Source: a virus. From it: a stretch of DNA of 53,534 nt. Every line of letters starts with the position of its first letter. The stretch's first letter is position 1. Location: IMG/VR virus record IMGVR_UViG_3300046517_001381, positions 1 through 53,534 of that record; one strand, given 5' to 3'. Under the pieces are notes generated by a model, which saw nothing but the letters and a program-made list of their open reading frames with translations, did not search any database and had not been told where the DNA came from. Shown one piece after another: positions 1,679 to 46,900 of the stretch. The position numbers were made by a program, and so were the translations under genes.

Positions 1679-1869
1679 GCCCGTTGCCTAGCGAGCACGC
1701 CAGCGAGTTCGTCACTCGCAATGATTTGCGCTTGCACGCGATTGCGGGCGCTGAAGTCACGAGAGCTTTCGCCGTCAGCTTTCTTGACCTTGCTGACGAA
1801 GAAATTTTCCTCGGTCGATGCGATGCCAGCCAGTATGCGTAACCGTAGTGCGATGTCGTTCTTGGTCAT
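1675..1869 (-). CDS. Hypothetical small protein, 64 aa
   Basis: Starts in an ATGA overlap with the end of the VWA/metallopeptidase gene and ends in another ATGA overlap. Mostly helical, charged sequence with no known motif. Being translationally coupled downstream of the VWA gene, it may be made together with it (inference). Confidence 0.65.
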   Translation of the reverse strand: MTKNDIALRLRILAGIASTEENFFVSKVKKADGESSRDFSARNRVQAQIIASDELAGVLARQRA

Positions 1870-3080
1870 GCTTTCTCCATTTCAAAGTGAATCGTCTCTC
1901 CCGCATGATCGGGTGCCTTGATCTCGGAACTGATAACCCATATCGACGGCACGTCCACCTTATCGGGGAAGCCGGTGTAGCCGTCCGTCAACGTGATGAA
2001 CACATCCACGTCGGTCATCCCCTCCCGCTCGGCCCAGCGATAGCCCTCACACATGTCGGTGCCGCCGCCGCTGTAGTAACCGATGTGGACTTCCTCGCCG
2101 CACTCGAAGTGCTCGTGCTTCTGCACATGGGTATCGGTGTAGATGACATCGACTTCCTCGGGTCGGCACATCTCGACGATGCGCGCGATATGTCCACCGT
2201 AATGTTTGATTTCTTCCTGCGACACCGAGCCGCTGATGTCGACTTGGCACAGCACCTTGCCCATCTTCGGCACGTTGTCCAAGCTGGGCAGATAGATGTC
2301 GCTTGCCGCGAACTTGCGGTTGGGGCGTCGCCACGAGTACTCGTTCTTGGTCATGCCGACCATGTACCGTTCGAGAATGTCGTACCACGGCGTCTTCACG
2401 TCGATGATCTGCTCGGCGATCTTGGCCAGCACTCCCGGCAACTTGCCTCGCGCCTTGGCGATCTGCGCCGCCTCGGCCACCTCGATCTTCATCTCGGCTT
2501 CCAGTTGCTTCCGCTCGGCCTCGTCAACCGGCATGTTCTCGTTCAGGATGTCGTCGCCGATGCCGTCGTTGTCCTCGGGCTGGCCGTTGCCGCCGCCATC
2601 ACCGCCGCCTTCGCCTTCACCCTCGCCGTCACCCTCACCTTCGCCTTCACCCTCACCCTTGCCGCCTTCACCGCCACCATTCTTGGGCAGCTTGTCGTAG
2701 ATGTTCTCCACGGTGTCGTCCTTGCTACCCGGCATGTTGACGCAGCCTTCGATCCGCGTTCCGATCTTGGCTTCGTCCAGCACGTCGTTGATCCACGCAT
2801 CACCCGCGTAATTCCACGGCTTCATGGGACGGTGACCTTTGCGCAGCGCATGCTGGCCGATGCGGTGGAACACTTCGTGGGCCAAGCCCCACACCACTTG
2901 TGGAACTGACAGCTTGTCGATGAACTTGGGGTTGTAGTAAATCTGCCCGCGCCCATCGACGGCGAGCGTCGGAATGTCTTTGCGCTCCTTGATGGGATGC
3001 TTGAGCAGGATTGCGCTGACGAACGGATGATCCATCGTCAGTTGTGCCGTTGCTTTCTGAATCTTGAACTTGTAATCCAT
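1866..3080 (-). CDS. VWA-domain putative metallopeptidase (CobT-like partner of a MoxR/CobS-type AAA+ ATPase)
   Basis: 404 residues from the ATG at 3080, chosen because GGGAGC lies upstream; an in-frame ATG 26 codons earlier lies in the preceding gene. Seen: HEVFH at 68-72, an HExxH zinc motif, followed by NYAGDAWIND at 90-99. Then a Gly/Glu/Asp-only stretch at about 135-168 like the acidic linker of CobT. Then a VWA-type domain with a metal-binding MIDAS: DISGSVS from 281, GGGTDM around 341 and LTDG around 366. This matches phage and bacterial proteins annotated as DUF2201 metallopeptidase plus VWA-like. Known of the family: such proteins work with an AAA+ ATPase, here the gene at 5789-6793, with a DUF3150-like protein (3553-4473) between them. 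The substrate is unknown. The linker DNA (about 2590-2690) is itself repetitive. Confidence 0.85.
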   Translation of the reverse strand: MDYKFKIQKATAQLTMDHPFVSAILLKHPIKERKDIPTLAVDGRGQIYYNPKFIDKLSVPQVVWGLAHEVFHRIGQHALRKGHRPMKPWNYAGDAWINDVLDEAKIGTRIEGCVNMPGSKDDTVENIYDKLPKNGGGEGGKGEGEGEGEGDGEGEGEGGGDGGGNGQPEDNDGIGDDILNENMPVDEAERKQLEAEMKIEVAEAAQIAKARGKLPGVLAKIAEQIIDVKTPWYDILERYMVGMTKNEYSWRRPNRKFAASDIYLPSLDNVPKMGKVLCQVDISGSVSQEEIKHYGGHIARIVEMCRPEEVDVIYTDTHVQKHEHFECGEEVHIGYYSGGGTDMCEGYRWAEREGMTDVDVFITLTDGYTGFPDKVDVPSIWVISSEIKAPDHAGETIHFEMEKA

Positions 3081-3088
3081 GATGCTCC

Positions 3089-3313
3089 CTATCCAAAAAT
3101 AAAACGCCAACCAACCTTGGCACTCTCCAACGTGGGGAACGGGCCTGCCATGCGCCACTTAGTTCCTGCTGTTGTGTCGGTAATGCACCACCCATCTGTC
3201 TCAGGGATGATGAAGCAATCGGTGCAGTCTTGGCGCGGCTCGCCCACGTCGTAGACGTAGCAGACCCAGCCCTTGTCGTTCTGCGCCCAACGCGCGGGGT
3301 TGTAATTAACCAT
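3089..3313 (-). CDS. Hypothetical small protein, paralogue of the 3306-3563 product
   Basis: 74 residues. The C-terminal half (DGW-I-D, then AGPF...ESAK.GW and a final aromatic-Gly) repeats the pattern of the next gene upstream, so the two are tandem paralogues. Trp and Cys rich. It stops 8 nt before the ATG of the VWA gene and overlaps its upstream neighbour by 8 nt. Function unknown. Confidence 0.7.
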   Translation of the reverse strand: MVNYNPARWAQNDKGWVCYVYDVGEPRQDCTDCFIIPETDGWCITDTTAGTKWRMAGPFPTLESAKVGWRFIFG

Positions 3314-3563
3314 ACATCAAGCGCCACGCAGCTTTGGCGCTCTCCGCGTCTTTGAATGGACCCGACACGCGAGTCCCTTCGCCGTTTGTCACCTTGCCAA
3401 TCCAAGTATCCTTGTGCGTGCTCATGACCTCCTTGGCGTCGATGATCCACCAGCCGTCGTCGCGTGGAATGATGTAAGCGTCCTTCGTTGCATCGGTGTC
3501 GGCATCGCTCTCGTAGATGGCCCACACCCAATGATCCGAATCTTCGTGCCACCTAGCGACCAT
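3306..3563 (-). CDS. Hypothetical small protein, paralogue of the 3089-3313 product
   Basis: 85 residues from the ATG at 3563. An earlier in-frame ATG at 3599 would lie deeper inside the DUF3150-like gene. A GGGGGC run lies about 7-12 nt upstream and a GGGAG directly abuts the ATG, so the exact start is uncertain. The pattern YIIPRDDGWWIID ... SGPFKDAESAKAAWRLMYG matches the neighbouring gene. It overlaps the DUF3150-like gene by 11 nt. The shared compact fold with a C-terminal helix suggests local gene duplication. Confidence 0.7.
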   Translation of the reverse strand: MVARWHEDSDHWVWAIYESDADTDATKDAYIIPRDDGWWIIDAKEVMSTHKDTWIGKVTNGEGTRVSGPFKDAESAKAAWRLMYG

Positions 3564-4473
3564 CTCCCGCCCCCATGAAGCCCGCCATCTGCTGTGCAAT
3601 TGCGTCCAGCTTCTTGGCAGCTTCCTGACGATTGATCGGCGACTCGCGCAGCCATTCCTTCTTCTCGGCCCAAAACGTGATAGTTGCGTCGAGGTCGTTC
3701 ATCGCCGCCTGCAACTCGGGCGATGGGTCGATAGCCAGCTTGCGCGCCAACTGCATGCCTTCGATCACGTTGTCGATGGCACTGTCGCGGAAGATGCCCA
3801 GCCGCTTGCCCTCGTCATCCTTCGCACCGATGGGCACCTTGAGCGTATCGGCCAGATGCTTCAACGGCTTCAGCATCTGCACCACGGTATTGGTTGCCAC
3901 CATGGTCGCCACCTCGTCCAACTCGGCTTGGAACTGTCTCTCGTCCTCGTCGCTGATGTCGAACAGGAAGTGCTTGCGCTCGGGCAGCGGACGGATGCGA
4001 ATGTCCAGCGTCATGCTCTCGCGGAATTGCTGCGCCGTGGGGTAGTCGCTGACCTGCGCACGCGGCGGCTTGCCCGACAACTCGCTCATACGGTTGCGCC
4101 ACTTGATGTCGGCCAGAACGTGGTCGTCGTACGCTGGCATGTACTTCGCCATCAAGTTGTCCACTGCGTTGGTGCATGCCCGCATGCCCGCTTGGTAGTC
4201 CTCGTACAGCATGTTCGGCAGGATGCGCGGGCCACGGTCGATGTGCGGGTGCGTGTGCTTCTTGTGGTACTGATACACCCGACCGTTCTCGGTGATGATC
4301 TCCGCGATGGGATTCCCCGGCTGCTTGAACAACCGGCTGTTCACCGTCAGCGACGCATCTTCCAGCGCCTGCTGGATGAACTGCTCGGCATCCACGTCAC
4401 GCTTCAGAAGATTCGTCCTGCGCATGGTCAGCTTGACCAGCATCGCGCGTTCGTTCAGGTTCGTGATTTTCAT
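3553..4473 (-). CDS. DUF3150-like protein, middle member of the AAA+/VWA triad
   Basis: 306 residues, start at 4473 with AGGAAGGA upstream. The N-terminus (LVKLTMRRTNLLKRDVDAE), the Tyr/His-rich THPHIDRGPRILP segment and a long helical middle fit my recollection of DUF3150. Phages and bacteria often encode that family between a MoxR-like ATPase and a VWA protein, and both are present here. No catalytic motif is visible, so it may be a substrate adaptor or scaffold for the complex (inference). It starts in an ATGA overlap with the 4470-4817 gene. A CAACTATCAC decamer lies inside the gene at 3677-3686. Confidence 0.65.
   Translation of the reverse strand: MKITNLNERAMLVKLTMRRTNLLKRDVDAEQFIQQALEDASLTVNSRLFKQPGNPIAEIITENGRVYQYHKKHTHPHIDRGPRILPNMLYEDYQAGMRACTNAVDNLMAKYMPAYDDHVLADIKWRNRMSELSGKPPRAQVSDYPTAQQFRESMTLDIRIRPLPERKHFLFDISDEDERQFQAELDEVATMVATNTVVQMLKPLKHLADTLKVPIGAKDDEGKRLGIFRDSAIDNVIEGMQLARKLAIDPSPELQAAMNDLDATITFWAEKKEWLRESPINRQEAAKKLDAIAQQMAGFMGAGDGR
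3677..3686 (-). repeat. CAACTATCAC decamer, copy 2
   Basis: Exact copy flanked by G on both sides, inside the DUF3150-like gene, where it encodes part of an Ala-Thr-Ile-Thr stretch. Confidence 0.8.
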
Positions 4474-4817
4474 ATCGGTCCTTCCTCTCGTAAACGTCGT
4501 ACAGTTGCAGGGTTGAATCGAAGGTACTGCTCCAACTCGTCGCGTGTGAACTCTTCCTCGCAATGCAGCAGGTACGGACCTCGGCACGCACCGTCCAGCT
4601 TGGCGCGCAAGTCCATCGTATGCACTAGGCTTAACAGCTTGGTCTGCGCTCCCACCGCAGCGTTGGGTGTGCCGTCGATCCGGTCGGCTACCCGCGCCGC
4701 CGTCATCCAGTCCTTGAACGGCGCATCGACGATGACCGACGTGACATCGAGCATGGAGTCGACGCACACGCCGTCCCAATCGAACTTCAGCAGGATCACG
4801 TAGCTTGCCTTGCTCAT
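4470..4817 (-). CDS. Hypothetical protein, 115 aa
   Basis: The ATG at 4817 is preferred over an in-frame ATG at 4832 because GGAGG then sits about 8 nt upstream. The start overlaps the previous stop (ATGA), and the end overlaps the DUF3150-like start by 4 nt. The N-terminal beta-prone ASYVILLKFDWDGVCVDSM leads into a helical, charged C-terminus. No family recognised. Its position just ahead of the DUF3150-like gene makes it a candidate accessory to that set. Confidence 0.7.
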   Translation of the reverse strand: MSKASYVILLKFDWDGVCVDSMLDVTSVIVDAPFKDWMTAARVADRIDGTPNAAVGAQTKLLSLVHTMDLRAKLDGACRGPYLLHCEEEFTRDELEQYLRFNPATVRRLREEGPI

Positions 4818-5056
4818 CGCTCCATCCTCCATATCGTTGCTGCGGTTGCCTTGGCGTCGTCGATGGGAATGTCCTTGTCCAACTGGACGACTCTCCTGTC
4901 GCCGGTCATCGTGAGCAGCCAGAACTCAGGGTACTTGCCGAGGATGCCGACGAAGTTACCGTCCACGATCATGTGTAGGTACTGCTCGATCATCGTTTCG
5001 ACTTCGAGCGTTTGCGGCTCCCACTTCACTCCATGCGCAGCATCGTCATCAGACAT
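4814..5056 (-). CDS. Hypothetical small protein, 80 aa
   Basis: Start at 5056 with GAGGAAG upstream, inside the end of the 5026-5262 gene (31 nt overlap). Pattern: basic/aromatic strands and a closing helix with DDAKATAATIWRME. The closing 'AK...M.RME' helix resembles that of the next gene and, more loosely, the 3089 and 3306 products, so these may be diverged members of one small-protein family. Function unknown. Confidence 0.65.
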   Translation of the reverse strand: MSDDDAAHGVKWEPQTLEVETMIEQYLHMIVDGNFVGILGKYPEFWLLTMTGDRRVVQLDKDIPIDDAKATAATIWRMER

Positions 5057-5788: not shown

Positions 5789-6793
5789 TTAGACCAGAAC
5801 GTTGCTGTTCTTGGTTGCGAACTGGACGAACGCCTTGGTGTTACGCACTTCCGGCTTGAGCTTGCTCACGTCGCACACCGTCATGACTTGGAAGTCGATG
5901 GGCATGCGCGACACGAACTCCCACACGCGGTCGAAGTTATCCTTGCTCGACTTGTGCGCAAGTGCACCGCTTAACGCGAACAGCACCGCCGGATCGGTGG
6001 GCACCTCGGCCTTGGCCGGATTCAGCAGCAGGGCGTCGATGTTCGGCAGACCTTCGTAGATGCGGCGGAAGCCGGTGTACTCCGCAGCCGCGCCCTCGCC
6101 CACGTCGCCAGCGACGGAGCCGAAGTACAGCCCGCTCGGCAGCGTCGTCGGTATCATGGCCACATCTTCCCACTTACGCGGAGTCGGATTCACCGCGCGG
6201 TTCGGGTCGAAGTCCATCAGCAGGTTCGGACGGAAGCGCAGGAACTGGATCAGCACCACGTCGATGCCCGCATCCAGCGCCCAGCTACACCACGGGTCGA
6301 TGGCAACGTCCAAGTCATACACCCGCACACGGTTGTGGAACTTGGTGCTGACCCGGTTCGCTCCCGACTTGTCCTCGGTACGATTGCCGGTGCCGATGAT
6401 GTACAACTCCTTGGACAGCGCAAGCTGCCCCGCATGCCGGTCGAGTATCACGCGACACAGCCCGTTCTGCATGGGCATGGTGCCGTCGCTGTATTCTTCC
6501 AGAATCAGAGCGCAGCGCCCCGTACCGGCGCGCAGCTTGTACATTTCCTCGGGTGGGAGCCACATCGCATGCGAAGCATCCGCCGACTTGAACGGGATGC
6601 CGAGAATGTCGCTTGGCTCACGCAGGCTGGCGTTGAACTCCACCGTCCGCTCCTCGGTGATGCCGAGTGCCTTGATGATGTTGCGCGACAGCGTTGACTT
6701 GCCGCCGCCCGGAGCGCCCCGGATGACCGGGACGATTCGGTTGGTCGTGTTGAACTGCGCGACACACGAGTCGAAAATATCTTGGTAGTTCAT
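5789..6793 (-). CDS. MoxR/CobS-like AAA+ ATPase
   Basis: 334 residues using the second of two adjacent ATGs (6793), which gives better spacing from GGAG; the first (6796) would also work. Walker A GAPGGGKST at 26-34, Walker B CALILEE at 94-100, a GTGN sensor-like motif at 134-137 and basic residues around RVSTKFHNRV at 148-157. The size and motifs fit MoxR/CobS-type ATPases. Known of the family: they remodel a target together with a VWA-domain partner; that partner here is the 1866-3080 gene, with the DUF3150-like gene between. It overlaps the small gene at 6793-6972. Likely cytoplasmic. Whether it acts on host protein complexes, virion assembly or a cofactor chelatase is not visible from sequence. 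Confidence 0.85.
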   Translation of the reverse strand: MNYQDIFDSCVAQFNTTNRIVPVIRGAPGGGKSTLSRNIIKALGITEERTVEFNASLREPSDILGIPFKSADASHAMWLPPEEMYKLRAGTGRCALILEEYSDGTMPMQNGLCRVILDRHAGQLALSKELYIIGTGNRTEDKSGANRVSTKFHNRVRVYDLDVAIDPWCSWALDAGIDVVLIQFLRFRPNLLMDFDPNRAVNPTPRKWEDVAMIPTTLPSGLYFGSVAGDVGEGAAAEYTGFRRIYEGLPNIDALLLNPAKAEVPTDPAVLFALSGALAHKSSKDNFDRVWEFVSRMPIDFQVMTVCDVSKLKPEVRNTKAFVQFATKNSNVLV

Positions 6794-6972
6794 CATTTCT
6801 CCGTGGGTTGAACAACAGTGTAGGTCGTGACGGGAATCAGCTTGCGCCTCATCTCCATCCGCCTTCTGAACTCATTGCTATTGCTTTCGTGGTCGTGGGC
6901 TTTCTTGTACGTCCACTCTCTGTCACGGTAGTCGCCAACGATTGACTGCCGCAATTGCTCTTTTCTATCCAT
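6793..6972 (-). CDS. Hypothetical charged small protein, 59 aa
   Basis: ATG at 6972 with AAGGA upstream; the stop overlaps the ATPase start (TGATG). Highly charged with an Arg/Lys/Glu-rich helical centre (KKAHDHESNSNEFRRRMEM). Coupling to the ATPase gene suggests co-translation. No family recognised. Confidence 0.6.
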   Translation of the reverse strand: MDRKEQLRQSIVGDYRDREWTYKKAHDHESNSNEFRRRMEMRRKLIPVTTYTVVQPTEK

Positions 6973-11098: not shown

Positions 11099-11183
11099 TG
11101 GTGGGCGGTGAAGGAATCGAACCTCCTATGTCTAGCATGCTCGTGGTTTACAGCCACGCGCCTTACCGGTCGGCCAACCGCCC
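11099..11183 (-). tRNA. tRNA-Tyr (anticodon GTA)
   Basis: 85 nt with encoded CCA. Acceptor stem GGGCGGT pairs with ACCGCCC, followed by discriminator A and CCA. The anticodon loop CTGTAAA gives GTA (complement of 11149-11151), closed by a CGTGG/CCACG stem. A long variable arm, as expected for tRNA-Tyr, precedes a T arm with loop TTCGATT. The 5' end overlaps the last codons of the 11163-11360 gene. Confidence 0.92.
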
Positions 11184-15935: not shown

Positions 15936-16529
15936 ATGGGCATTGATCTCGACACCGTGATGGTGGACTTCGAGTCCGGCAATCCGCCGACGCGCTCCCT
16001 TACACCCGAAGGAAAGAAGGTGACCGATTGGTCGAAGACGCTGCCGGTGACGGGCGGCGAGCAGAACATTCCCGGCCATCGCCAGCAAGCCGCTGTCGCC
16101 GCCGGATTCATCTACAAGTTCGGCGACATGGAAGTGCTCGACTTCATGAGCAACGCCGACTACAACGCGGTCATGGCCAGCAACGGCCCGCCGCGCTACG
16201 ACATCTTCACCGGCACCTACTACGACTACGGCGCACACGAGAACGGCCACCCGTCGGGCGTCGTCATCTGCACCGACCCCAGCCTGCTGGTCGTGAAAGG
16301 CTCCAAGGACGGCGTGGTACCGCCGCCGGAAGAAGAAACGCCGCCCGGTTTCGTGCCCGGAACGCCCGGCCACGAGCGGCCTGATCGCCCGGACCGTGAG
16401 CGCCCCGACCGTGGCGCTGGTCGCGATGAGCGCAAGGCCGAGCGCGACGCCAAGCAGGACGAGCGGCAGGCGGGGCGCGACGAGAACCAAGCCGAGCGCG
16501 ACGCGCGACGGGACGAGCGCAAGAACTAG
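15936..16529 (+). CDS. Hypothetical phage protein with a charged repeat tail, 197 aa
   Basis: AAAGGAAG lies upstream. The first 130 residues form a mixed fold (GNPPTRSLTPEGKKVTDW, ending around VVICTDPSLLVVKG). A Pro-rich hinge leads to about 55 residues of Arg/Asp/Glu repeats (RPDRERPDRG, DERKAERDAKQDERQ), probably disordered or a long charged helix. No family recognised. Last gene before the terminator preceding the PEP-CTERM cassette. Confidence 0.65.
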   Translation: MGIDLDTVMVDFESGNPPTRSLTPEGKKVTDWSKTLPVTGGEQNIPGHRQQAAVAAGFIYKFGDMEVLDFMSNADYNAVMASNGPPRYDIFTGTYYDYGAHENGHPSGVVICTDPSLLVVKGSKDGVVPPPEEETPPGFVPGTPGHERPDRPDRERPDRGAGRDERKAERDAKQDERQAGRDENQAERDARRDERKN

Positions 16530-16560
16530 CGTCGACTTCCTTTACAGTAAAGCGGGACAG

Positions 16561-16600
16561 CGGGCGTAAGTCCTTGATTGGACCTCTGCGCCCGTTTCTT
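16561..16600 (+). terminator. Terminator-like hairpin ahead of the PEP-CTERM genes
   Basis: CGGGCG/CGCCCG outer stem and GTCC/GGAC inner stem with a 6-nt loop, separated by an internal loop, followed by TTTCTTGCTT. It would end transcription from the Acb2 block. A GC palindrome follows (GGGCGCGCGCCC, 16611-16622). A TTGTCA ... GATAAA pair with 19-nt spacing (16604-16634) is only a weak promoter candidate for the cassette. Confidence 0.55.
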
Positions 16601-16651
16601 GCTTGTCATCGGGCGCGCGCCCGCGCGCGATAAAACCCCGAGAGGAATCCG

Positions 16652-17290
16652 ATGAAAAAGCTTCTGCTGGCCCTCCTCACCGCTACCACGTTCGCCCTGC
16701 CCATCGCTGCCTACGCCGACGTGATCCTGACTTTCGGTCAAGCCATCAACGGCGACACCATCACCGCCACCGATGACGGCACCACTACCGACATCGAAGG
16801 TCTGAACATCCCGGTCACCGTCACGCAGATTCTCGGCCCGGTGGTCACGCCGTTTCTCGCGCTGCTCGACCTCTCCGCAGTCAGCACCGGCCCAGTGCAG
16901 TCGGGACCGCTCGGCGTCATCGAGCCGTTCAGCGGCAACTTCACCATCACCAGCCCGCTGTGCGGCATCGGCTTCAACTGCCTGTCGGGAACCTTTACAG
17001 GTGCCACGTTCGGTTTTCTCGACGGCGCATCGCTGACCATGGCCAGCGCGCAGCCACCGGGTAGCCTGATCTTCACCAGCGATGTCATCACCGAACTGAA
17101 CCTGCCGCGCGGCATGGCGTTCTCGTTCGCCAACGTCACCCCGCCCGTTCACGTCGATGGCACCACCATCGGCGCGTTCACTTCGTCCGTCTCCGGCACG
17201 TTCTCGGCGGCAGTGGTGCCGGAACCGGCGTCGGTGCTGCTGTTCGGCGTCGCGTTGCTGGCGCTGGCGTTCGTGCGTCGTCGGACCTGA
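16652..17290 (+). CDS. Secreted PEP-CTERM protein 1
   Basis: 212 residues, AGAGGAA upstream. It has a signal peptide (MKK, a hydrophobic core of about 15 residues, cleavage after AYA). The mature part is Thr/Gly/beta-rich with two Cys (CGIGFNC). The C-terminus carries the full PEP-CTERM tripartite signal: VVPEPAS, a hydrophobic helix of about 16 residues, then RRR. Known of the family: exosortases cut at PEP and display such proteins at the outer surface or in exopolysaccharide matrix of Gram-negative bacteria. Exosortase must come from the host, as none is seen here. It is followed after 21 nt by a second PEP-CTERM gene; both lie between terminators. Confidence 0.88.
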   Translation: MKKLLLALLTATTFALPIAAYADVILTFGQAINGDTITATDDGTTTDIEGLNIPVTVTQILGPVVTPFLALLDLSAVSTGPVQSGPLGVIEPFSGNFTITSPLCGIGFNCLSGTFTGATFGFLDGASLTMASAQPPGSLIFTSDVITELNLPRGMAFSFANVTPPVHVDGTTIGAFTSSVSGTFSAAVVPEPASVLLFGVALLALAFVRRRT

Positions 17291-17311
17291 AAACCTAAAA
17301 GGGGAGAATTC

Positions 17312-18139
17312 ATGAAGAAGGTACTGGCACTGATTTTCGGATTGCTGGTCGCCAACTCGGCGTCGGCTACGTTCTGTAGCCTGATCGGGAGCAAGGACCA
17401 GACCTGTACCTTTGCCTCCGATACCAGCGGGGGCACGACGCTGTTCACCAACCCGTCGAACCTGTCGAACATCGGCAGCGGCTCGATCAATCCGTTCCTC
17501 GGCGATCAAGTCGGCGGCAACGGCGGGATCGAGTCAGGCGTCAATACCGATGACGCGAACGTCAACACGCTGCCGCTCAACGACAAGCGGGATAACAACA
17601 ACACCTTCACCAACACGATGTCGCTGAACCAGCTTGGCGTCGTCACCATCGGGGGAGTCGACTACTACTCGTTCTTCCTCGACATCAACGAGCCGAACGG
17701 CAACGGGCAAAACCTGCTGTCCATCGACCGCTTGGCGATCTTCGGCCAGACCGGGGCGACGCCGGGAGCAGCGGTCGACCTCAACAGCAGCAACATCACC
17801 TCGCTGGATGACGTGGACGTGTTCCCGAACCTGACGGTGGTGTACCGTCTCGGCGTCGGCAACGACCTGCAACTCGACTACAACCTGTTCGCTGGCAGCG
17901 GCATCGGCTACGACATGCAGTTGCTGGTCCCCACGGTGCTGTTCGCACCGCTGGTGCCCGACTCGCGCATCGTCTTCGCCGTGCAGTACGGCGCGCTGTC
18001 GGGGAATCTGGCCGAGGATGGTTTCGAGGAATGGGCGTTCCGGCCAGCAGTCGCCCGCGTGGTGCCGGAACCGGCGACGTTCGCTTTAATCGGCGCAGCG
18101 TTGCTCGGCTTGGCGTTTGTGCGGCGTCGGCGTAAGTAA
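17312..18139 (+). CDS. Secreted PEP-CTERM protein 2
   Basis: 275 residues, GGGGAGA upstream. Signal peptide (MKKVLALIFGLLVANSASA). The mature domain is rich in Asn, Asp, Gly and Thr with two Cys close to the N-terminus (TFCS, QTC). C-terminal PEP-CTERM: VVPEPAT, hydrophobic helix, RRRRK. The two products share only the targeting signals, so they are not recent copies. Both are likely displayed on the host surface during infection, with possible roles in blocking superinfection, altering biofilm matrix or sticking cells together (inference). Confidence 0.88.
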   Translation: MKKVLALIFGLLVANSASATFCSLIGSKDQTCTFASDTSGGTTLFTNPSNLSNIGSGSINPFLGDQVGGNGGIESGVNTDDANVNTLPLNDKRDNNNTFTNTMSLNQLGVVTIGGVDYYSFFLDINEPNGNGQNLLSIDRLAIFGQTGATPGAAVDLNSSNITSLDDVDVFPNLTVVYRLGVGNDLQLDYNLFAGSGIGYDMQLLVPTVLFAPLVPDSRIVFAVQYGALSGNLAEDGFEEWAFRPAVARVVPEPATFALIGAALLGLAFVRRRRK

Positions 18140-18163
18140 AGCGTCACGAAACTTCTGCCTGTA

Positions 18164-18200
18164 GGGCGGGGCTGTTACACTGGCCCCGCCCTTATTTTTT
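18164..18200 (+). terminator. Strong rho-independent terminator after the PEP-CTERM pair
   Basis: GGGCGGGGC pairs with GCCCCGCCC (9 bp, 10-nt loop) and is followed by TTATTTTTT. Best terminator in the window; with the hairpin at 16561-16600 it brackets the two PEP-CTERM genes. Confidence 0.9.
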
Positions 18201-18247
18201 GGGCCGCACCATCCAGCGTTACTTCTGGACCTTGAAAGGGGAACACC

Positions 18248-18415
18248 ATGAACGTAACCGCTCTCGTCGTCCTCGTTTTCGCACTGGTCTTTGCCTTGCT
18301 CGAAGCGTGGAAAGGTTCCGCGTCAATCCGTCCCTCGAATTTCGGCTGGCTAGCACTGGCCCTGCTGATCCTCGTACACATCTTCTTCCGTGGCAGCGAG
18401 ATTCTTTTCAAATGA
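18248..18415 (+). CDS. Small membrane protein with two transmembrane segments, 55 aa
   Basis: AAAGGGG precedes the ATG. Segment 1 VTALVVLVFALVFALLEAW, a short Lys/Ser-rich loop, segment 2 NFGWLALALLILVHIFF. The stop overlaps the next ATG by 4 nt. Resembles a small holin or inner-membrane accessory in size only. Confidence 0.65.
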   Translation: MNVTALVVLVFALVFALLEAWKGSASIRPSNFGWLALALLILVHIFFRGSEILFK

Positions 18416-18573
18416 ACATTGTCGCGGTCCTTATTGTCATCATCCTGTTGCTCGCGCTCGTCGGCGCACTGCCGGTGTGGCCGCATGCCGCCAACTGGGG
18501 ATACTATCCGTCGGGTGGCATTGGTCTGATCGTTCTCGTTCTCATCGTGCTGCTCTTGATGGGGAGACTGTGA
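18412..18573 (+). CDS. DUF3309-family small membrane protein, 53 aa
   Basis: MNIVAVLIVIILLLALVGAL, then PVWPHAANWGYYPSGG, then a second hydrophobic segment. The WPH...WGYYPSGG loop is the signature of DUF3309, found in many proteobacterial genomes. Role unknown; unusual in a phage. Coupled by overlaps (ATGA before, GTGA after) to both neighbours. Confidence 0.75.
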   Translation: MNIVAVLIVIILLLALVGALPVWPHAANWGYYPSGGIGLIVLVLIVLLLMGRL

Positions 18574-18746: not shown

Positions 18747-19313
18747 ATGAGCAGAAGTCTCGTACGAGCCACCCCCGTAGGTGGTGACGTGTATCTGATC
18801 GAGGAGTTGTCGCGTCCGACCGATCCCGGCTTTGGTCGCCCCGGCGGCGGCTGGGAACCTGTCGATCCCGGTTTCGGCTCGGGTCGTCCTGACCGCCCCG
18901 GCCATGACCTGCCGTGGTCACCCGGCCATCCCGGCAATCGCCCGCCCGGTAGCTCGCCGGGACACCCCGGCAACGCGCTGCCGGTCCCGCCGCTGCGCCC
19001 TTCCACACCCATCGTGCTGCCACCCGGCATGTGGCCCCCGGCGCTGCCACCCGGAATCGACAATACGCTGCCGGGAGTTCCGCCCGAGCAGCCCGTCGTG
19101 ATTCCGCCCGATCCCTCCATCGGCATCGACCAGCCGATCTACCTGCCGCAACTGCCCGCAGGTTCTGCGCTGCTGATCGCGCTGACCGGCGCGCACATGC
19201 CGCAGCCGAAGGGCGATGCACCGGCCCCGCCGCCGAACAGCAAGCCTGCCATCCTGTGGCAAGGCGCGGGCACCAAACCGGTGCTCGTGTACGTCAGCAC
19301 GTCGCCGAAGTAA
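18747..19313 (+). CDS. Hypothetical Pro/Gly-rich phage protein, 188 aa
   Basis: AAGGAAA upstream. The first 20 residues (RSLVRATPVGGDVYLIEEL) and the last 45 are folded-looking; the middle 110 are Pro/Gly repeats (PGHPGNRPPGSSPGHPGNAL), probably an extended linker. It ends 9 nt before the terminase gene. Likely virion-associated (inference). Confidence 0.65.
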   Translation: MSRSLVRATPVGGDVYLIEELSRPTDPGFGRPGGGWEPVDPGFGSGRPDRPGHDLPWSPGHPGNRPPGSSPGHPGNALPVPPLRPSTPIVLPPGMWPPALPPGIDNTLPGVPPEQPVVIPPDPSIGIDQPIYLPQLPAGSALLIALTGAHMPQPKGDAPAPPPNSKPAILWQGAGTKPVLVYVSTSPK

Positions 19314-19322
19314 AGTAGGGGA

Positions 19323-20822
19323 ATGCCCGCCTCGCTCGCAGAAGCCTCTGCCGATACCGTACTGAAGTACCGGCCACCGAAGTCGGTACAGGGGTTTCTG
19401 CAAAGCGAGGCGTTTATCTCGCTCATCGTCGGTCCCGTAGGGAGCACCAAGACTACGGGGGGTCTTTTCAAGATCATCTACCATGCGAAGCGCATGGCAC
19501 CGTGTCGCGACGGCGTACGCAGGTCGCGCGCAGTGTGGGTGCGCAACACCAACGAGCAGTTGCGCGACACCAGCATCCCCGACTTCCTGAAATGGTTTCC
19601 CGACGGCGTTGCGGGAAGCTACCTGAAAACCGGCACCCGCTTCTTCCTGCGCTTCGACGATGTGGAGTGCGAGGTGCTGTTCCGTGGTTTGGACGACGCC
19701 AACGACGTGCGCCGCCTGCTCTCGCTGCAAGCGAGCTTCGCCGTGTTCGACGAGTTCCGCGAAATCCACAAGGACATCTTCGACGCGATGCAGGGCCGTC
19801 TCGGTCGCTTCCCCGACAAGATGATGGTGCCGCACAAGCCGAAGTGGGGGCGCGACAAGAATGGCCACCCGGTCGCCGGGTGCGTCACCGACGACGGCGT
19901 GCAGAACAAGCACCTGTGGGGCATGAGCAACCCGCCCGACATGGACACGTTTTGGGAAAGCTTCCTCACCGATCCGCCCGAGAATGCGGAAGTTTTCTTC
20001 CAGCCGTCGGGCCTCGACCCCAAAGCCGACTGGCTGGAGTTCCTGCCGTCCGAGTACTACACCAACTTGGCGGTGGGCAAGACCGAAGACTGGATCGACG
20101 TTTACATCAAAGCGATGTTCGGCAAGTCGCTCGCGGGACAGCCGGTGCACCGCTCGTTCAACTTCGAGTTCCACGTCGCCAAGGGGCCGCTGCGTCCGCT
20201 GCGCTCCGGCGAGAACATCCTTCTCGCCAGCGACGCGCAGTATCCGCTGCTGATTGGCGTCGACTTCGGCCTCACTCCGGCAGCAGTAATCGGTCAAATG
20301 GACCCGCGTGGCAGGCTGCTGGTGTTCCGTGCGCTGACCGCCGAGGGGATGGGTAGCTTGCGTTTCATCCGCGAGCGCCTGAAGCCGATTTTGGCCAACG
20401 AGTTCGGCGGCATTCCCGTGCTGGTCATCGGCGACCCGGCAGGTATCCAGCGGGCGCAGACCGACGAGCGCAGCGTGTTCGACATCTACAAGGCCGAGGG
20501 CTTTCGCATCATCCCCGGCAAGACCAACGCCATACCGGGGCGCTTGTCGGCGGTGGACAACTGGCTCGGGCGGCAGATCGACGGCGGCGCGGCGTTCCTG
20601 ATCGACCCCAGTGCCAAGGCGCTGATCCACGCGCTGCGCGGCGGCTACCGCTACAAGGTCAGCACCAAGGGCGAGGTTGACGAGAAGCCGGAAAAGAATT
20701 ACGCCAGCCACATCAGCGATGCGTGTCAGTATCTGGCCATGCACGCCGACCCCGGCGGCATCGGCGGCGGGATGTTCGTGGCGGCGAGGCGGGAAGTGAA
20801 GAAGGTGGCGTACGTGTACTGA
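19323..20822 (+). CDS. terL: Terminase large subunit
   Basis: 499 residues, AGGGGA upstream. ATPase domain: Walker A GPVGSTKTT at 37-45, an adjacent VWVRNTNEQLRDTS segment and Walker B FAVFDEF with D143/E144. Nuclease domain with the three acidic motifs of RNase H-like terminases: IGVDFG near 314, VIGDPAG near 370 and SHISDACQYL near 467. It packages DNA into the procapsid through the portal, encoded 32 nt downstream. Normal length for the family. Confidence 0.95.
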   Translation: MPASLAEASADTVLKYRPPKSVQGFLQSEAFISLIVGPVGSTKTTGGLFKIIYHAKRMAPCRDGVRRSRAVWVRNTNEQLRDTSIPDFLKWFPDGVAGSYLKTGTRFFLRFDDVECEVLFRGLDDANDVRRLLSLQASFAVFDEFREIHKDIFDAMQGRLGRFPDKMMVPHKPKWGRDKNGHPVAGCVTDDGVQNKHLWGMSNPPDMDTFWESFLTDPPENAEVFFQPSGLDPKADWLEFLPSEYYTNLAVGKTEDWIDVYIKAMFGKSLAGQPVHRSFNFEFHVAKGPLRPLRSGENILLASDAQYPLLIGVDFGLTPAAVIGQMDPRGRLLVFRALTAEGMGSLRFIRERLKPILANEFGGIPVLVIGDPAGIQRAQTDERSVFDIYKAEGFRIIPGKTNAIPGRLSAVDNWLGRQIDGGAAFLIDPSAKALIHALRGGYRYKVSTKGEVDEKPEKNYASHISDACQYLAMHADPGGIGGGMFVAARREVKKVAYVY

Positions 20823-40959: not shown

Positions 40960-43900
40960 ATGGCTTCGCCGCTCGACTCTCTCCGCGAAAAAGTACCATG
41001 GATGAAGGACATGTCCGACGAGGAGGTGCTCGACAACGCGTCGAAAGTCACCGGCAAGCCTATGCAGGAGATTGCCGACTACTACGGCATGAAAACCGGC
41101 GCGGATCGCGGCGCGGGGATGGCGGGGCTGCGCTCCGGCACGGAAGACATCAAGGGTCTTGGCTACAGCGCCTTGGGTTGGGCAGGAGAGACGGGCCGCG
41201 AGATGGGCATTCCCGGCGCGGAGGGGTTTCGCGATTGGGCCAACAGGAAATCGGCGCAAAAGCAAATATCGTCGCAGATCGAGTCGCGCCCCGATTTGGA
41301 GGACATTGAAAAAATCTGGAAGGAAGACCCCAGTAAGATACCCGCGTGGGCGCTTTACCAGACCACCAAGCAGGTGCCCAATCTCGCTGCCGGTATCGGC
41401 GCGGGGATGTTGGTTCCCGAGGTAGCGGTTCCGGCTGCGCTGTCGCGCGGCGCTGCGCTCCTGCCGCGCGTTCTCGGTGGCGGCGGCGCTCGCGCAGGCA
41501 TGTCTGCCGCAGAGAGGTTAGCCGCCGAAGAAGCAGGCAAGACTTTCGGCAAGCAGATTGTCGGCGGCGGCGCATTCAACGAGGCGCAGTCGATAGGCTC
41601 GCTGTATCAGGAAGCAGTGCAAGCCGACCGCCCCGAGGCGGCGGGCGAGACGTTCCTAAAGTCGATCCCGTACGCCATTTCGGAGACGGGGCCGGAAGCG
41701 ATGCTCGGCGGTCGTCTCCTGCACGGCAGCGGCATCAAGGGAAACATCGCCAAGCGCATGGGTATTTCCGGCGCGGTGCAGGGCGTTTCCGGTGCCACCA
41801 GCGAGTCGCTGCAAACTGCGCTGGAGCACTCGATGCACCCGGAGGGGCAGATTTCGCCCGAGCAGAGCCGGTCGGATTACCTGAATGCCGCACTTGCGGG
41901 TGGCGTGGTCGAAGGCGCGCTCGGCATGGTTGGCGGCATTCGCCACGCTCGTGCCCCTATCGACACCAAGGTGCCCGCCGATTTGACCAAACGCCTGCCT
42001 GACAACGAACCTTACGAGCAACAGGTTGAGCGTATGCACGGCATGGAGCCGGGGACGCTGGGTCTGCGCACGCCGGAGCAGCAAGCAGAATTTGTACGCG
42101 CGCAAGGGGTGCCAGCCGAACGCGACCTTCTGGCGGGGTTGTACCCCACTGCGCCCGTCACACCGACGTATGGAGCCGATACCGTGGGCGAGATGGAGCG
42201 CGCAGCCGGGGTGCCACCGGGCACTTTTGCGCCGGTCCCTGCCGCCGCTGTTGCGCCCGCCGCTCGTACCACCCGCTCCGCTGTCGCGCCTACGGATGCT
42301 ACCACGGGCACGGGGACCACGGCGGTCGATCCCGTGCTCGCGCAGGTCACCGCCACCAAGGATCAGCTTGTCGAGGCGCACAACAGGCTGTTCCCCCAAG
42401 ACAAGGCCGAAAAGCCTGCGTGGCGGGTTCGCGGCGAGATCACCAAGTGGGTAGGCAACCCGCAGACGGTCGACGAGGCGGTGGCTACGCTCAAGACCAA
42501 AATTGCTGCCGCGCTTACGCCGCAGCAGGGCATCAAGAAGGCCACCCGCATCAACAACGCAGAGCGGATGATCCAGCTTCACGACGAGCTTCTCGGCGTA
42601 CCGGAAGCCGAACGCCAGCCGGTCAACGTGTGGGAGGAAAGGCTGCAAGCGGAGAGTGCGGCGGCGGCACAGGCGGCGGCGCTCGCCGCAGCCCCAGTCG
42701 GGCAGGCAGGGCGGGTACCCGGCGCGGTCACGAACATCGACCCGGCGACGCTCAACGCAACCGCGCCCGCCGTTACACCGCCCGTCGTCACACCGCCGTC
42801 CACGCAGGTTGGCCCGGCGGGGACCGAGGTTCTGGCTAAGCCTACCAGTCCTGCGGAGTTTCCGGCCTACCACGCGGCAATCGTTCCGCGCCTCAAAGAA
42901 GGCATAGCCGAAGAAGACTTGCAGGCGCTGATGCTCACGCGGGGCAAGGAAGCTGTCGGCGACGAAAACACGAACGTGTCCCTACCCAACCCGGAACTCA
43001 CCGCAAAACTGCAACAAACACCCGAGGGCAGGAAGAAGCTCGCCGATCTGGCGCAGAAAGCAGCGGAGCAGGCCGAACTGCCTACTGGCGTGGAAGCTGC
43101 CGCAGGTACGTTGCGCGGTGTTGCCGAAACGCTGGGCGTCAGCCATTCGACCTTGCAGGGCAGGGTGAATCGCGCCTTGGCTAAGGTCAAGGAGAATGCC
43201 GCTAAGAATGACTTGCCAGAAGAAGCGGCGCACGAACTGTTGGGGTTGCAGACCAGCCTTGATGTTCTCGACATCGCCCCGCCATCTACGGCCTACGAGG
43301 GCACGCAGCGAGTTGGTGTAGCACCCAGCGACGAGCGCACGGAAGCAGTGGAAGGCGTGACCGATACGCGCGGAGAGGAAGCACCCGAGGTTACAAGCGA
43401 AGCAGCGGCAGAGGAAACACCGGAAGGCGAAGACGCTCGCGCCGACACAACCAAGCAGCGCGGGGCTGAGTTCGAGAACAAGTGGGTGGATAGCGAAGGG
43501 CGTGACATCAAGCACGACGATGTGTTGGCGGCGCAGGAAGAATGGGATGAAGGCCGCAGGGACGAGGAGCCGACATGGGATAGGCTGACACCAGAGCTTC
43601 AACGGCAATGGGTCAAAGGCTTCATCAGCGCGTACATCCCCCTTGGTGCTGCTACTTCGGTGAAGCCGAAAGAGGCAATGCAGCGAGTGGGTCTTGTGCG
43701 GGAGAAGGTACGGGAAGGGATCAAGGAGCAAACCAATGAAGCAGACACCCGTGCAGAAGGCGCTGACGCAGGGGCTGACCGTCAGGCAGAGGAAGGCGCA
43801 GATGTCGCCGGGGGAACTGGCGGCGTCGAACGCCAAGTGGGACGCGTTCAAACAGGCGTTCAAGCAGAAGGTGCGGGACGAGTATCACCTGCCGCGCCTG

Positions 43901-46900
43901 AAGGTGAAAAAGCTGCCGCGACTGCCAAGCCTGAAGAAGCTGGCGCAGGAGCCGCCCCCGCCACTGCCGCAGCCCCCGCAACTGCCAAAAGCACCGGAGC
44001 CGCAGGGACTGCCGCAACTGCCGGAGCCGCCAAGCCTGCCGAACCCGTAGTCCAGCGCAAGAAACGCGCCGTACCTGCCAAACAAACGGAGGAAGTGGCC
44101 AAAAAGCCCGGAGAAAAGACGCTCGAAACGCACAAGGTGGAGACGACTCGCGAGCGGGCGCAGCGCAAGTGGAGCGAAGCGTCGGCGCTTGTGCCCGAAC
44201 TTGGTGCATGGGGTGACCTGTCTCAAGAGTCGCAGGATGACTTCCGCAAGGCCGAGGAGAAAGACCAGAACGTCGCCGACGCGATGAAGCTCAAGGAAGC
44301 CGACGGGAAAATCCAGCGCTCCGAGCAGTCGTCGATCAAGGCCGAGGGCGGCGCAAGCAAGACGGCAACTACTGCCGAGCATACGGTCAGCACGCTGAAG
44401 AAACTGTTCTTCAGCGACAGCCGCTTCGACCAGAAAGTCACGGTGGTGCAGAGCGTATCCGACCTCGACCCCAAGTTCGTCAAGAAGTACAAGATCGGTG
44501 CGAATGACCAAGGCTTCACCGACGACAAGGGCCACGTCACGCTGATCGCCGACAACATCGACAAGGGCAGCGAACTCGGCATCTTCCTGCACGAGATGGG
44601 CGTCCACGCGGGCATGGAGAAGCTGATCGGCGCGGACAACTTGGTCGATCTGTCGAAGCAGGTTGCGAAGTGGTCGGACCGCACCGATGGCTCGCTTGAG
44701 TCCACCATCGCCAAGCGGGTGATTGCGCGCCTGACCAACGCGGCGAAAAATGCCGAGGAGCGCGGCGAGAAGTTCACCGACGCCAACTACACGGAAGAAG
44801 CGATTGCCTACTTCGTCGAGGAAGCAGTCGCCCATGGCATCAACCCGACCGCCATGGATGCCAGAACCGAAATCGGTCGCTGGTTCCGCAAGCTGTGGGC
44901 GGCAGCGAAGTCGGCGCTGCGCAAGATGGGCCTCGACCGCTTCGACAAGCTCACGGCGCAGGATGTGGTCAACCTCGCGTATGGCGCGGCGCGGCTCGAA
45001 CTCGAAGGCAACTGGCACGGCACCGCTGCGGAATATCGCAACATGCGGACCAAGTTCATGGGCAGCGGCGAAGGCATGCAGGCGTTCGGCTGGGGACACT
45101 ACCTCGCGCAGCGTCAGGACATCGGCAAGGACTATTGGAAAAACGACGTGGAGCGCAAGACCACGCCGAAGGAGACACGCCCCGTCTACGAAGGTCAGGC
45201 AATAAGCTGGCAAGAAGCGGAGAGCAGCCCGCTGCTGCATGCTCGCTATCTGGCGGGAATGTGGAAGGCTGGGCTTATGTCGGATAGTCCCCCGGAGTGG
45301 TACCGGAAATCGCTCAAAGCGATAGACAACCAGCTAAAGTTCGGCCTCGCCAGCGAGGATGTTGCGCAGGCAAAACGCGACCGCGAATTCTACGAGAAAG
45401 CGCAATCCGAATACAACGATGTCGATCTCAATAAAGTAACCCTGTCTCAAACTCCGGGCGTGAAGCCCAAGGGTTCGCTGATGCGAGCGGACACCGCCAT
45501 TGCCGACCACGAGTGGCTCGACCTCGACAAGCCGTTCTCGGAGCAGTCGCAGCATGTGCAGGACAGGCTGAACAAGCTGCTGCCCGAAACAACGCCGAAG
45601 GCGCGGGAGGTAATCAAAGCGTACAGCGATATGGCGCTTTACATACCTGATCGCGCGCAGGCTGCGCGCATCATGAGTATCGTCAAGCAGTGGGGAGCGG
45701 GCGGGGCGATGGGGAAGATTCAGGACTTGGCGCGCAACAGGCTTTCCGCCGAAGACTTCAAGACGTATTCGCGGATGCGCAAGCAAGTAATCAAGCAACT
45801 GTTCACGACTATTCGCCCTGAAATGACTGGCGAGCGGATTTACTCCGCGCTGACGGACAAACTCGGTGGCCAGAAAGAGGCGTCGCAGGCGCTCGACAAG
45901 GCGGGCATCAAGGGCAACAAATTCTACGACTACGCAAGTCGGCAAAAAGCCCTAGAGGCAGAAGGCCCAGCCCGCTTGGTAGCCCCCAAGCTGGTCGGCA
46001 CCGAGGTCGAACCGGGTGCCCGCATCACGGCCAACTCTACGTTTAGCTGGAATCCTGCTACCGGCATCGTTTCGGTAAAGACGGACAGCGGCTGGAAGCA
46101 TTTCTCCTACGAGGTCATGCCGCATGCCGACCATGCGTCCATCGTAAAAAAGCTGACCACGGATTTCAGCACGCCCGAGTCCAAACTCACACGCAACTTC
46201 GTCATATTCAACGATAAGAATGTGCAGCGCGTGGCCACCTACGCTGGCGCAGAAGCAGGCAACATTCGTTTCTCGCAACGCGCCCCCGTGGCCGAAGTGG
46301 CGAAGACGCAGGCCACCAAGCACCTGACCAACGTGGAGACGTTCGCGCAGAAGCACGGCCTTGGCGTGATGATTACCGAGGACATCGCGGACCTCGCCGA
46401 GCGCCATGGCCTGCCCGAAGTACGCAAGTACGTTGACGCCGCCAAGGAGCGGGAAGCCGCACGCGTGGAGTTCGAGCAGCCGGTAGGCAAGGTCGCCGAG
46501 ATGTACGACGCGCTGCCGGAGCGGGAGCGCGGCACGGGCGAGGGCAGCGTCAACAAGTTCATCCACGACGCGACGATTCGGGGTGACACCAAGGGCATCG
46601 AGCGGCTGTCGGCGTCGGGGCAAGCGATGGTCAAGGCGGTGTTCAAGCACGGCAGCGACACGCTGGCGCTGAAAAAGAAGCTGATCGACGAGGACGTGGG
46701 CCGGGAGTACGACCGGCGCATCGCCGAGGAAACCACGCCCGAGGCCAAGGCCGAACTGCGCGCCGAGCGCGCCACGCTGCTGAGCAAGTTCAGCAAGCTG
46801 ATGACGGTCGAGAATTCGGATACCTACGCCCCGCTCAAGCGGTTCGGCGACTTCGTGGTGTCGGCCAAGTCCAAGGAATACGTGGACGCCGAGGAGCGTG

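Follow-up and report, generated by a model that had tools for sequence, protein, structure and literature searches.

A putatively mobile pair of phage PEP-CTERM genes encodes candidate substrates for a host exosortase

Two neighbouring genes of a phage genome from IMG/VR, g36 and g37, encode proteins that we class as PEP-CTERM domain proteins, here met in a new context. In Gram-negative bacteria, PEP-CTERM tails serve for recognition by exosortase and are tied to exopolysaccharide (PMC11980579). Our best guess, tentative and by analogy, is a mobile phage cassette whose products would serve the host exosortase as substrates and mask the infected cell against adsorption. The record of 53,534 bases is the complete window (the whole stretch of DNA analysed; Table 1). 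Phage genes run along its entire length, including those for a large terminase, a portal-like protein, a major head protein and replication. The pair lies ~1.2 kb upstream of the large terminase gene, with three small genes intervening.

Table 1. Features in and around the PEP-CTERM gene pair, in window coordinates.
Feature	Coordinates	Strand	Description
g35	15936..16529	+	197 aa, function not assigned; accompanies PEP-CTERM genes in unrelated phages
Hairpin upstream of pair, possible weak terminator	16555..16599	+	-24.2 kcal/mol, z -4.2
g36, family F1	16652..17290	+	212 aa; signal peptide (by eye) 16652-16717, predicted beta-barrel body, PEP-CTERM tail 17216-17284
g37, family F3	17312..18139	+	275 aa; signal peptide (by eye) 17312-17368, body, PEP-CTERM tail 18062-18136
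Intrinsic terminator 3' of pair	18163..18202	+	12-pair stem, T-rich tail
g38, small membrane protein downstream of pair	18248..18415	+	gene call; 76% identity in L003
g39, small membrane protein	18412..18573	+	gene call; similar stretch in L003, L006 and L008
Proline-rich protein gene ahead of terminase	18747..19313	+	conserved in L003-L009
Large terminase subunit (context, outside cassette)	19323..20822	+	phrog_979, E 1.2e-7

Both tails exceeded the curated cut-offs of the two PEP-CTERM models. TIGR02595 gave 22.7 bits for g36 and 24.8 bits for g37 (cut-off 16), and PF07589 gave 26.4 and 29.5 bits (cut-off 20.7). A six-frame search of the record gave no other PEP-CTERM matches, and the 14 control genomes gave none at all. 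Signal peptides were judged by eye (MKKLLLALLTATTFALPIAAYA/D in g36 and MKKVLALIFGLLVANSASA/T in g37); the g36 structure model also shows an N-terminal helix. A Shine-Dalgarno-like sequence precedes each gene. Outside the tail, we found no similarity between g36 and g37. A sequence-only reading of this DNA had described two adjacent genes for mutually unrelated proteins, each with a signal peptide and a PEP-CTERM tail, and had proposed running PEP-CTERM models on both; the open reading frames lie approximately where it placed them, and the model scores bear out the tails.

Third-position GC was 0.84 for g36 and 0.86 for g37, and 0.78-0.85 for other phage genes. Because dN/dS was 0.12-0.32 for g36 and 0.09-0.44 for g37 (approximate values, with several synonymous distances near saturation), both genes are under purifying selection.

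Neither body matched any named PEP-CTERM family above its cut-off. The floc_PepA model (NF033554) scored 40 bits for g36 and 31.5 bits for g37, both under its 80-bit cut-off. In g36 the alignment covers residues 104-211 (E 3.7e-10), partly owing to the common tail, and 34 of 37 members of the g36 family, F1, match the model at E 0.001 or better. PepA, from Zoogloea and Aquincola, has a similar size and tail, and the weak g36 match extends into the body; in contrast to PepA, g36 is phage-borne, falls short of the cut-off and is likened to it by sequence alone. This likeness bears on an alternative in which proteins sorted by the host exosortase alter exopolysaccharide binding and thereby change aggregation or how progeny are released or spread within flocs and biofilms. 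When PepA is overexpressed, soluble exopolysaccharide falls while the bound fraction rises, and flocs are restored (PMC9850573), an action on exopolysaccharide binding that favours this alternative over masking. However, pepA alone rescued flocs among several PEP-CTERM genes tried (PMC9850573), and the match to the model is far under its cut-off and draws partly on the shared tail. Taken by itself, a change in exopolysaccharide is somewhat unlikely, although nearly as likely as masking.

No exosortase (PF09721) was found in any of 44 virus records, the window phage included, so any sorting would rely on a host enzyme; the sequence-only reading had likewise seen none in the phage. Because an exosortase is absent from the same genome, we file g36 and g37 as tagged proteins only. 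They are neither a complete exosortase system nor PepA. With bacterial PEP-CTERM proteins (TIGR02595, PF07589) they share the VPEP motif, hydrophobic helix and arginine tail, next to a signal peptide recognised by eye, but they are encoded by phages that lack exosortase. Host assignment through the terminase was abandoned, as cultured relatives were too distant (best 41%, Pseudomonas phage Rollin); terminases of other F1 phages were also too distant from cultured phages (31-43%).

We compared the locus among 80 retained IMG/VR relatives of the window terminase. In two records from other metagenomes (L003 and L004), the terminase is 97% identical, g36 is 91-93% identical (93% measured over residues 17-211), and gene order around g36 is kept. 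At the g37 site, both hold a different PEP-CTERM protein of 230 aa. A third, unrelated kind of PEP-CTERM protein lies between the proline-rich gene and the terminase in L006 (terminase 87%), whereas L008 (terminase 87%) retains the flanking genes and is missing g35-g37. PEP-CTERM genes occurred in 3 of 44 terminase-relative records tested, many of which are fragments. The genes are thus present or absent among close relatives at a fixed site, as in an accessory cassette (moron). A constant tag on varying bodies fits something that meets a varied cell surface. The same flanks in L003 and L004 rule out an assembly chimera with bacterial DNA, which had been named beforehand as one of the findings that would overturn the cassette.

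Three further phage records (G045, G046 and G047) have no structural gene in common with the window, yet carry a g35-like gene with g36 and/or g37. Identities to the window are 44-60% for the g35-like protein, 71-74% for g36 and 80-91% for g37. G045 encodes a tape-measure protein and a phrog_9 terminase, and G047 a phrog_979 terminase. Because these three phages share only the cassette with the window, sequence comparison indicates that it moves between phages. This agrees with the earlier proposal of a cassette inserted in the packaging block. We found no integrase in the window record; 4 of 32 records contain one.

The pair had also been read as self-contained and bracketed by terminators, which holds firmly for its 3' side only. 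The downstream terminator has its stem at 18163-18192 (-24.7 kcal/mol), followed by TATTTTTT, and recurs in L003. The upstream hairpin, although stable, has an interrupted T tail and was called by neither of two terminator scans, which leaves an upstream terminator doubtful. A scan for sigma-70 patterns alone found no promoter belonging to the pair. A mobile cassette in the late region is supported. Across the F1 family, downstream terminators follow 9 of 37 genes or pairs and 7 of 444 random stretches, a contrast inflated by the mostly coding nature of the random stretches.

When viral contigs were scanned with the pattern VPEPAx15RRR, the first 80 loci contained at least 83 matches to the motif. 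Among the 83 listed, 41 were genuine PEP-CTERM C-termini and the remainder arose by chance. Clustering of the bodies separated three named families, F1 with g36, F2 with a member in L006 and F3 with g37, from a number of smaller groups. Several viral contigs carry PEP-CTERM genes as tandem pairs or triplets; one of these, L195, has three successive genes with different bodies at 2880-4984. For g37 we found four viral homologues, with 65-88% identity over the protein.

The F1 profile matched 134 viral stretches (tblastn). The best 80 loci yielded 78 open reading frames above 100 bits, which fell into 35 groups at 80% identity. Near-identical phages repeat among viral contigs, so contig counts do not equal counts of independent phages; F1 is nevertheless spread over dozens of distinct viral contigs and several terminase groups. 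Neighbouring genes matched terminases (phrog_9, 38, 979 and 2), portal and head proteins and phage DNA polymerases, and a tail sheath gene near one F1 gene points to a contractile-tailed phage among the carriers. These matches place g36 in a family common to many unrelated phages, a stronger result than the sequence-only reading had claimed. That reading had suggested looking for tagged genes beside large terminase genes, and six loci (L244, L256, L281, L291, L307 and L251) have a terminase no more than ~1.5 kb away from F1.

We observed recurrent genes beside F1. Within 1.5 kb of F1, 33 of the 57 loci that could be tested encode a protein rich in proline, with repeats like PDNxLPG and HPIxP, as against 0 of 73 control loci; the pattern was derived from some of the same loci, which makes the contrast partly circular and the tight clustering its firmer part. 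The proline-rich gene in Table 1 is the window's own version of this neighbour. In 16 loci, a one-helix protein of ~70 aa without a clear PHROG match lies one or two genes from F1 (for example L240:4402-4611, L255:907-1107 and L271:8842-9042). The small membrane proteins g38 and g39 also gave no match in a PHROG comparison.

Such surroundings raise the alternative that the proteins enter progeny virions or aid envelope breakage, with the tail as an ordinary membrane anchor. The genes lie near terminase and tail genes, and the small one-helix protein recurs beside F1. Against this, F1 members keep the PEP motif with little or no variation, more strictly than an anchor would require, and the genes are gained and lost among close relatives, unlike structural or lysis genes. 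We regard a virion or lysis role as improbable.

A search of 50,697 INPHARED phages recovered no F1, and searches there with g37 and with an F2 member were equally negative. F1 was also not found in PHROGs or among PLSDB plasmids. Because PHROGs lack the family and no cultured phage was found to carry it, its members are likely annotated as hypothetical or bacterial.

We surveyed ~1,400 bacterial genomes, a sample that may miss rare bacterial copies. The F1 body profile found nothing in sets of 10, 369 and 294 genomes and one weak match in 385 further genomes (L313, alphaproteobacterial), which we rejected as an F1 member because it is a different PEP-CTERM protein. Among 347 genomes from the phylum of an Acidobacteriaceae MAG, three encode distant F1 relatives that lack the PEP-CTERM tail. 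Two of the loci (L314:1087-2055 and L315:1222-2208) specify untagged secreted proteins of Acidobacteriota, distantly related to the F1 barrel and with another C-terminal domain; they are a possible cellular source of the F1 fold. Two scans of genome contigs, the second by motif only, gave no relatives of the g36 or g37 bodies among the matches listed. As a positive control, the F1 profile recovered 11/11 viral carriers at E 1e-55 or better.

These data bear on whether the pair is recent host cargo, be it a bacterial gene pair caught by chance that does nothing for the phage or contamination with DNA from bacteria. In favour of this, PEP-CTERM proteins belong to bacteria, and host flanks can be present in IMG/VR contigs. 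Yet the same flanks recur in two other records, and the bacterial sample gave F1 only as distant untagged forms plus one weak unrelated match, with a model that recovers all 11 viral positives. Codon composition is phage-like and both genes are under purifying selection. Host cargo, already disfavoured, is highly improbable.

AlphaFold predicted g36 as a secreted beta-barrel plus a C-terminal helix (pLDDT 89.6), with an N-terminal helix, a closed barrel at residues ~22-188 and the C-terminal helix at 193-211. Foldseek searches of PDB and viral libraries gave no significant match, so no function follows from the fold. VIA-align gave Z scores up to 9.3 with small barrels such as PloI4 (9.3) and AbyU, which we read as a common barrel arrangement that implies no function. 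PDB sequence searches found no relatives of the proteins (E 0.025 and 0.55). The g37 model was discarded (pLDDT 38.8).

The fold matters for a further alternative, in which abundant phage substrates act as exosortase decoys that saturate or block the enzyme and stop renewal of host surface proteins. The tail is the common part of the otherwise unrelated F1, F2 and F3 bodies, as a decoy would predict. However, each family conserves its body as well, at low dN/dS, and g36 is confidently predicted to fold into a globular domain, whereas a decoy could make do with the tail. We give a decoy role little probability.

We return to the preferred reading, a cassette of exosortase substrates that masks the infected cell. 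Both proteins would be exported through the Sec pathway and then stay anchored in the inner membrane by the C-terminal PEP motif, the membrane helix and the arginines. Cleavage by the host exosortase would release them for transfer to the cell surface or the layer of exopolysaccharide. Competing phages would then adsorb less to the coated cell, and progeny would adsorb less to the doomed cell or its remains. Processing by the host exosortase is probable, and a surface location for the two proteins is only slightly less so. Blocking of adsorption is a tentative proposal: bodies that change while the tag stays the same suggest that the proteins act at the surface against a varied partner. A known precedent for a secreted phage protein that excludes superinfection is Llp of T5 (PMC9586334). 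Like g36 and g37, Llp is a small secreted phage protein, and surface action is proposed for the pair by this analogy; unlike them, it is an early-made lipoprotein, whereas g36 and g37 carry an exosortase tag and adjoin late genes, a presumed difference in timing that counts against masking.

In the literature searched we found no description of a phage PEP-CTERM system, in line with what the sequence-only reading had supposed. The nearest report is a one-sentence mention, among gene transfers in Yellowstone viruses, of 13 virus genes assigned to TIGR03118, a family with a putative exosortase-interaction domain (PMC11003980). These genes are also virus-borne with a putative exosortase-interaction C-terminus, but their description sets them apart from g36 and g37 as a different family. 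At close to even chances, unrelated tailed phages of exosortase-bearing hosts may draw on one set of genes that remodel the cell surface. This set would comprise F1, F2, F3 and further PEP-CTERM proteins, frequently accompanied by a proline-rich partner, and would exploit the host exosortase to rebuild the coat of infected cells, an undescribed route of phage-directed surface display. If the proteins are sorted, phages would use the exosortase pathway, a little-understood bacterial route of surface sorting, to alter infected cells. Such proteins would also serve as naturally occurring exosortase substrates and as a host-prediction marker for uncultured phages, and would form a new class of phage surface proteins in floc-forming soil and sludge bacteria.

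Elsewhere in the window, we observed a phage-borne tRNA-Tyr gene (11099-11183, minus strand) and a giant protein of 2663 aa without a Pfam match (40960-48951). In the early region, positions 1866-3080 match a putative metallopeptidase with a VWA-like domain (DUF2201), and an ATPase gene (5789-6796) lies a few genes away.
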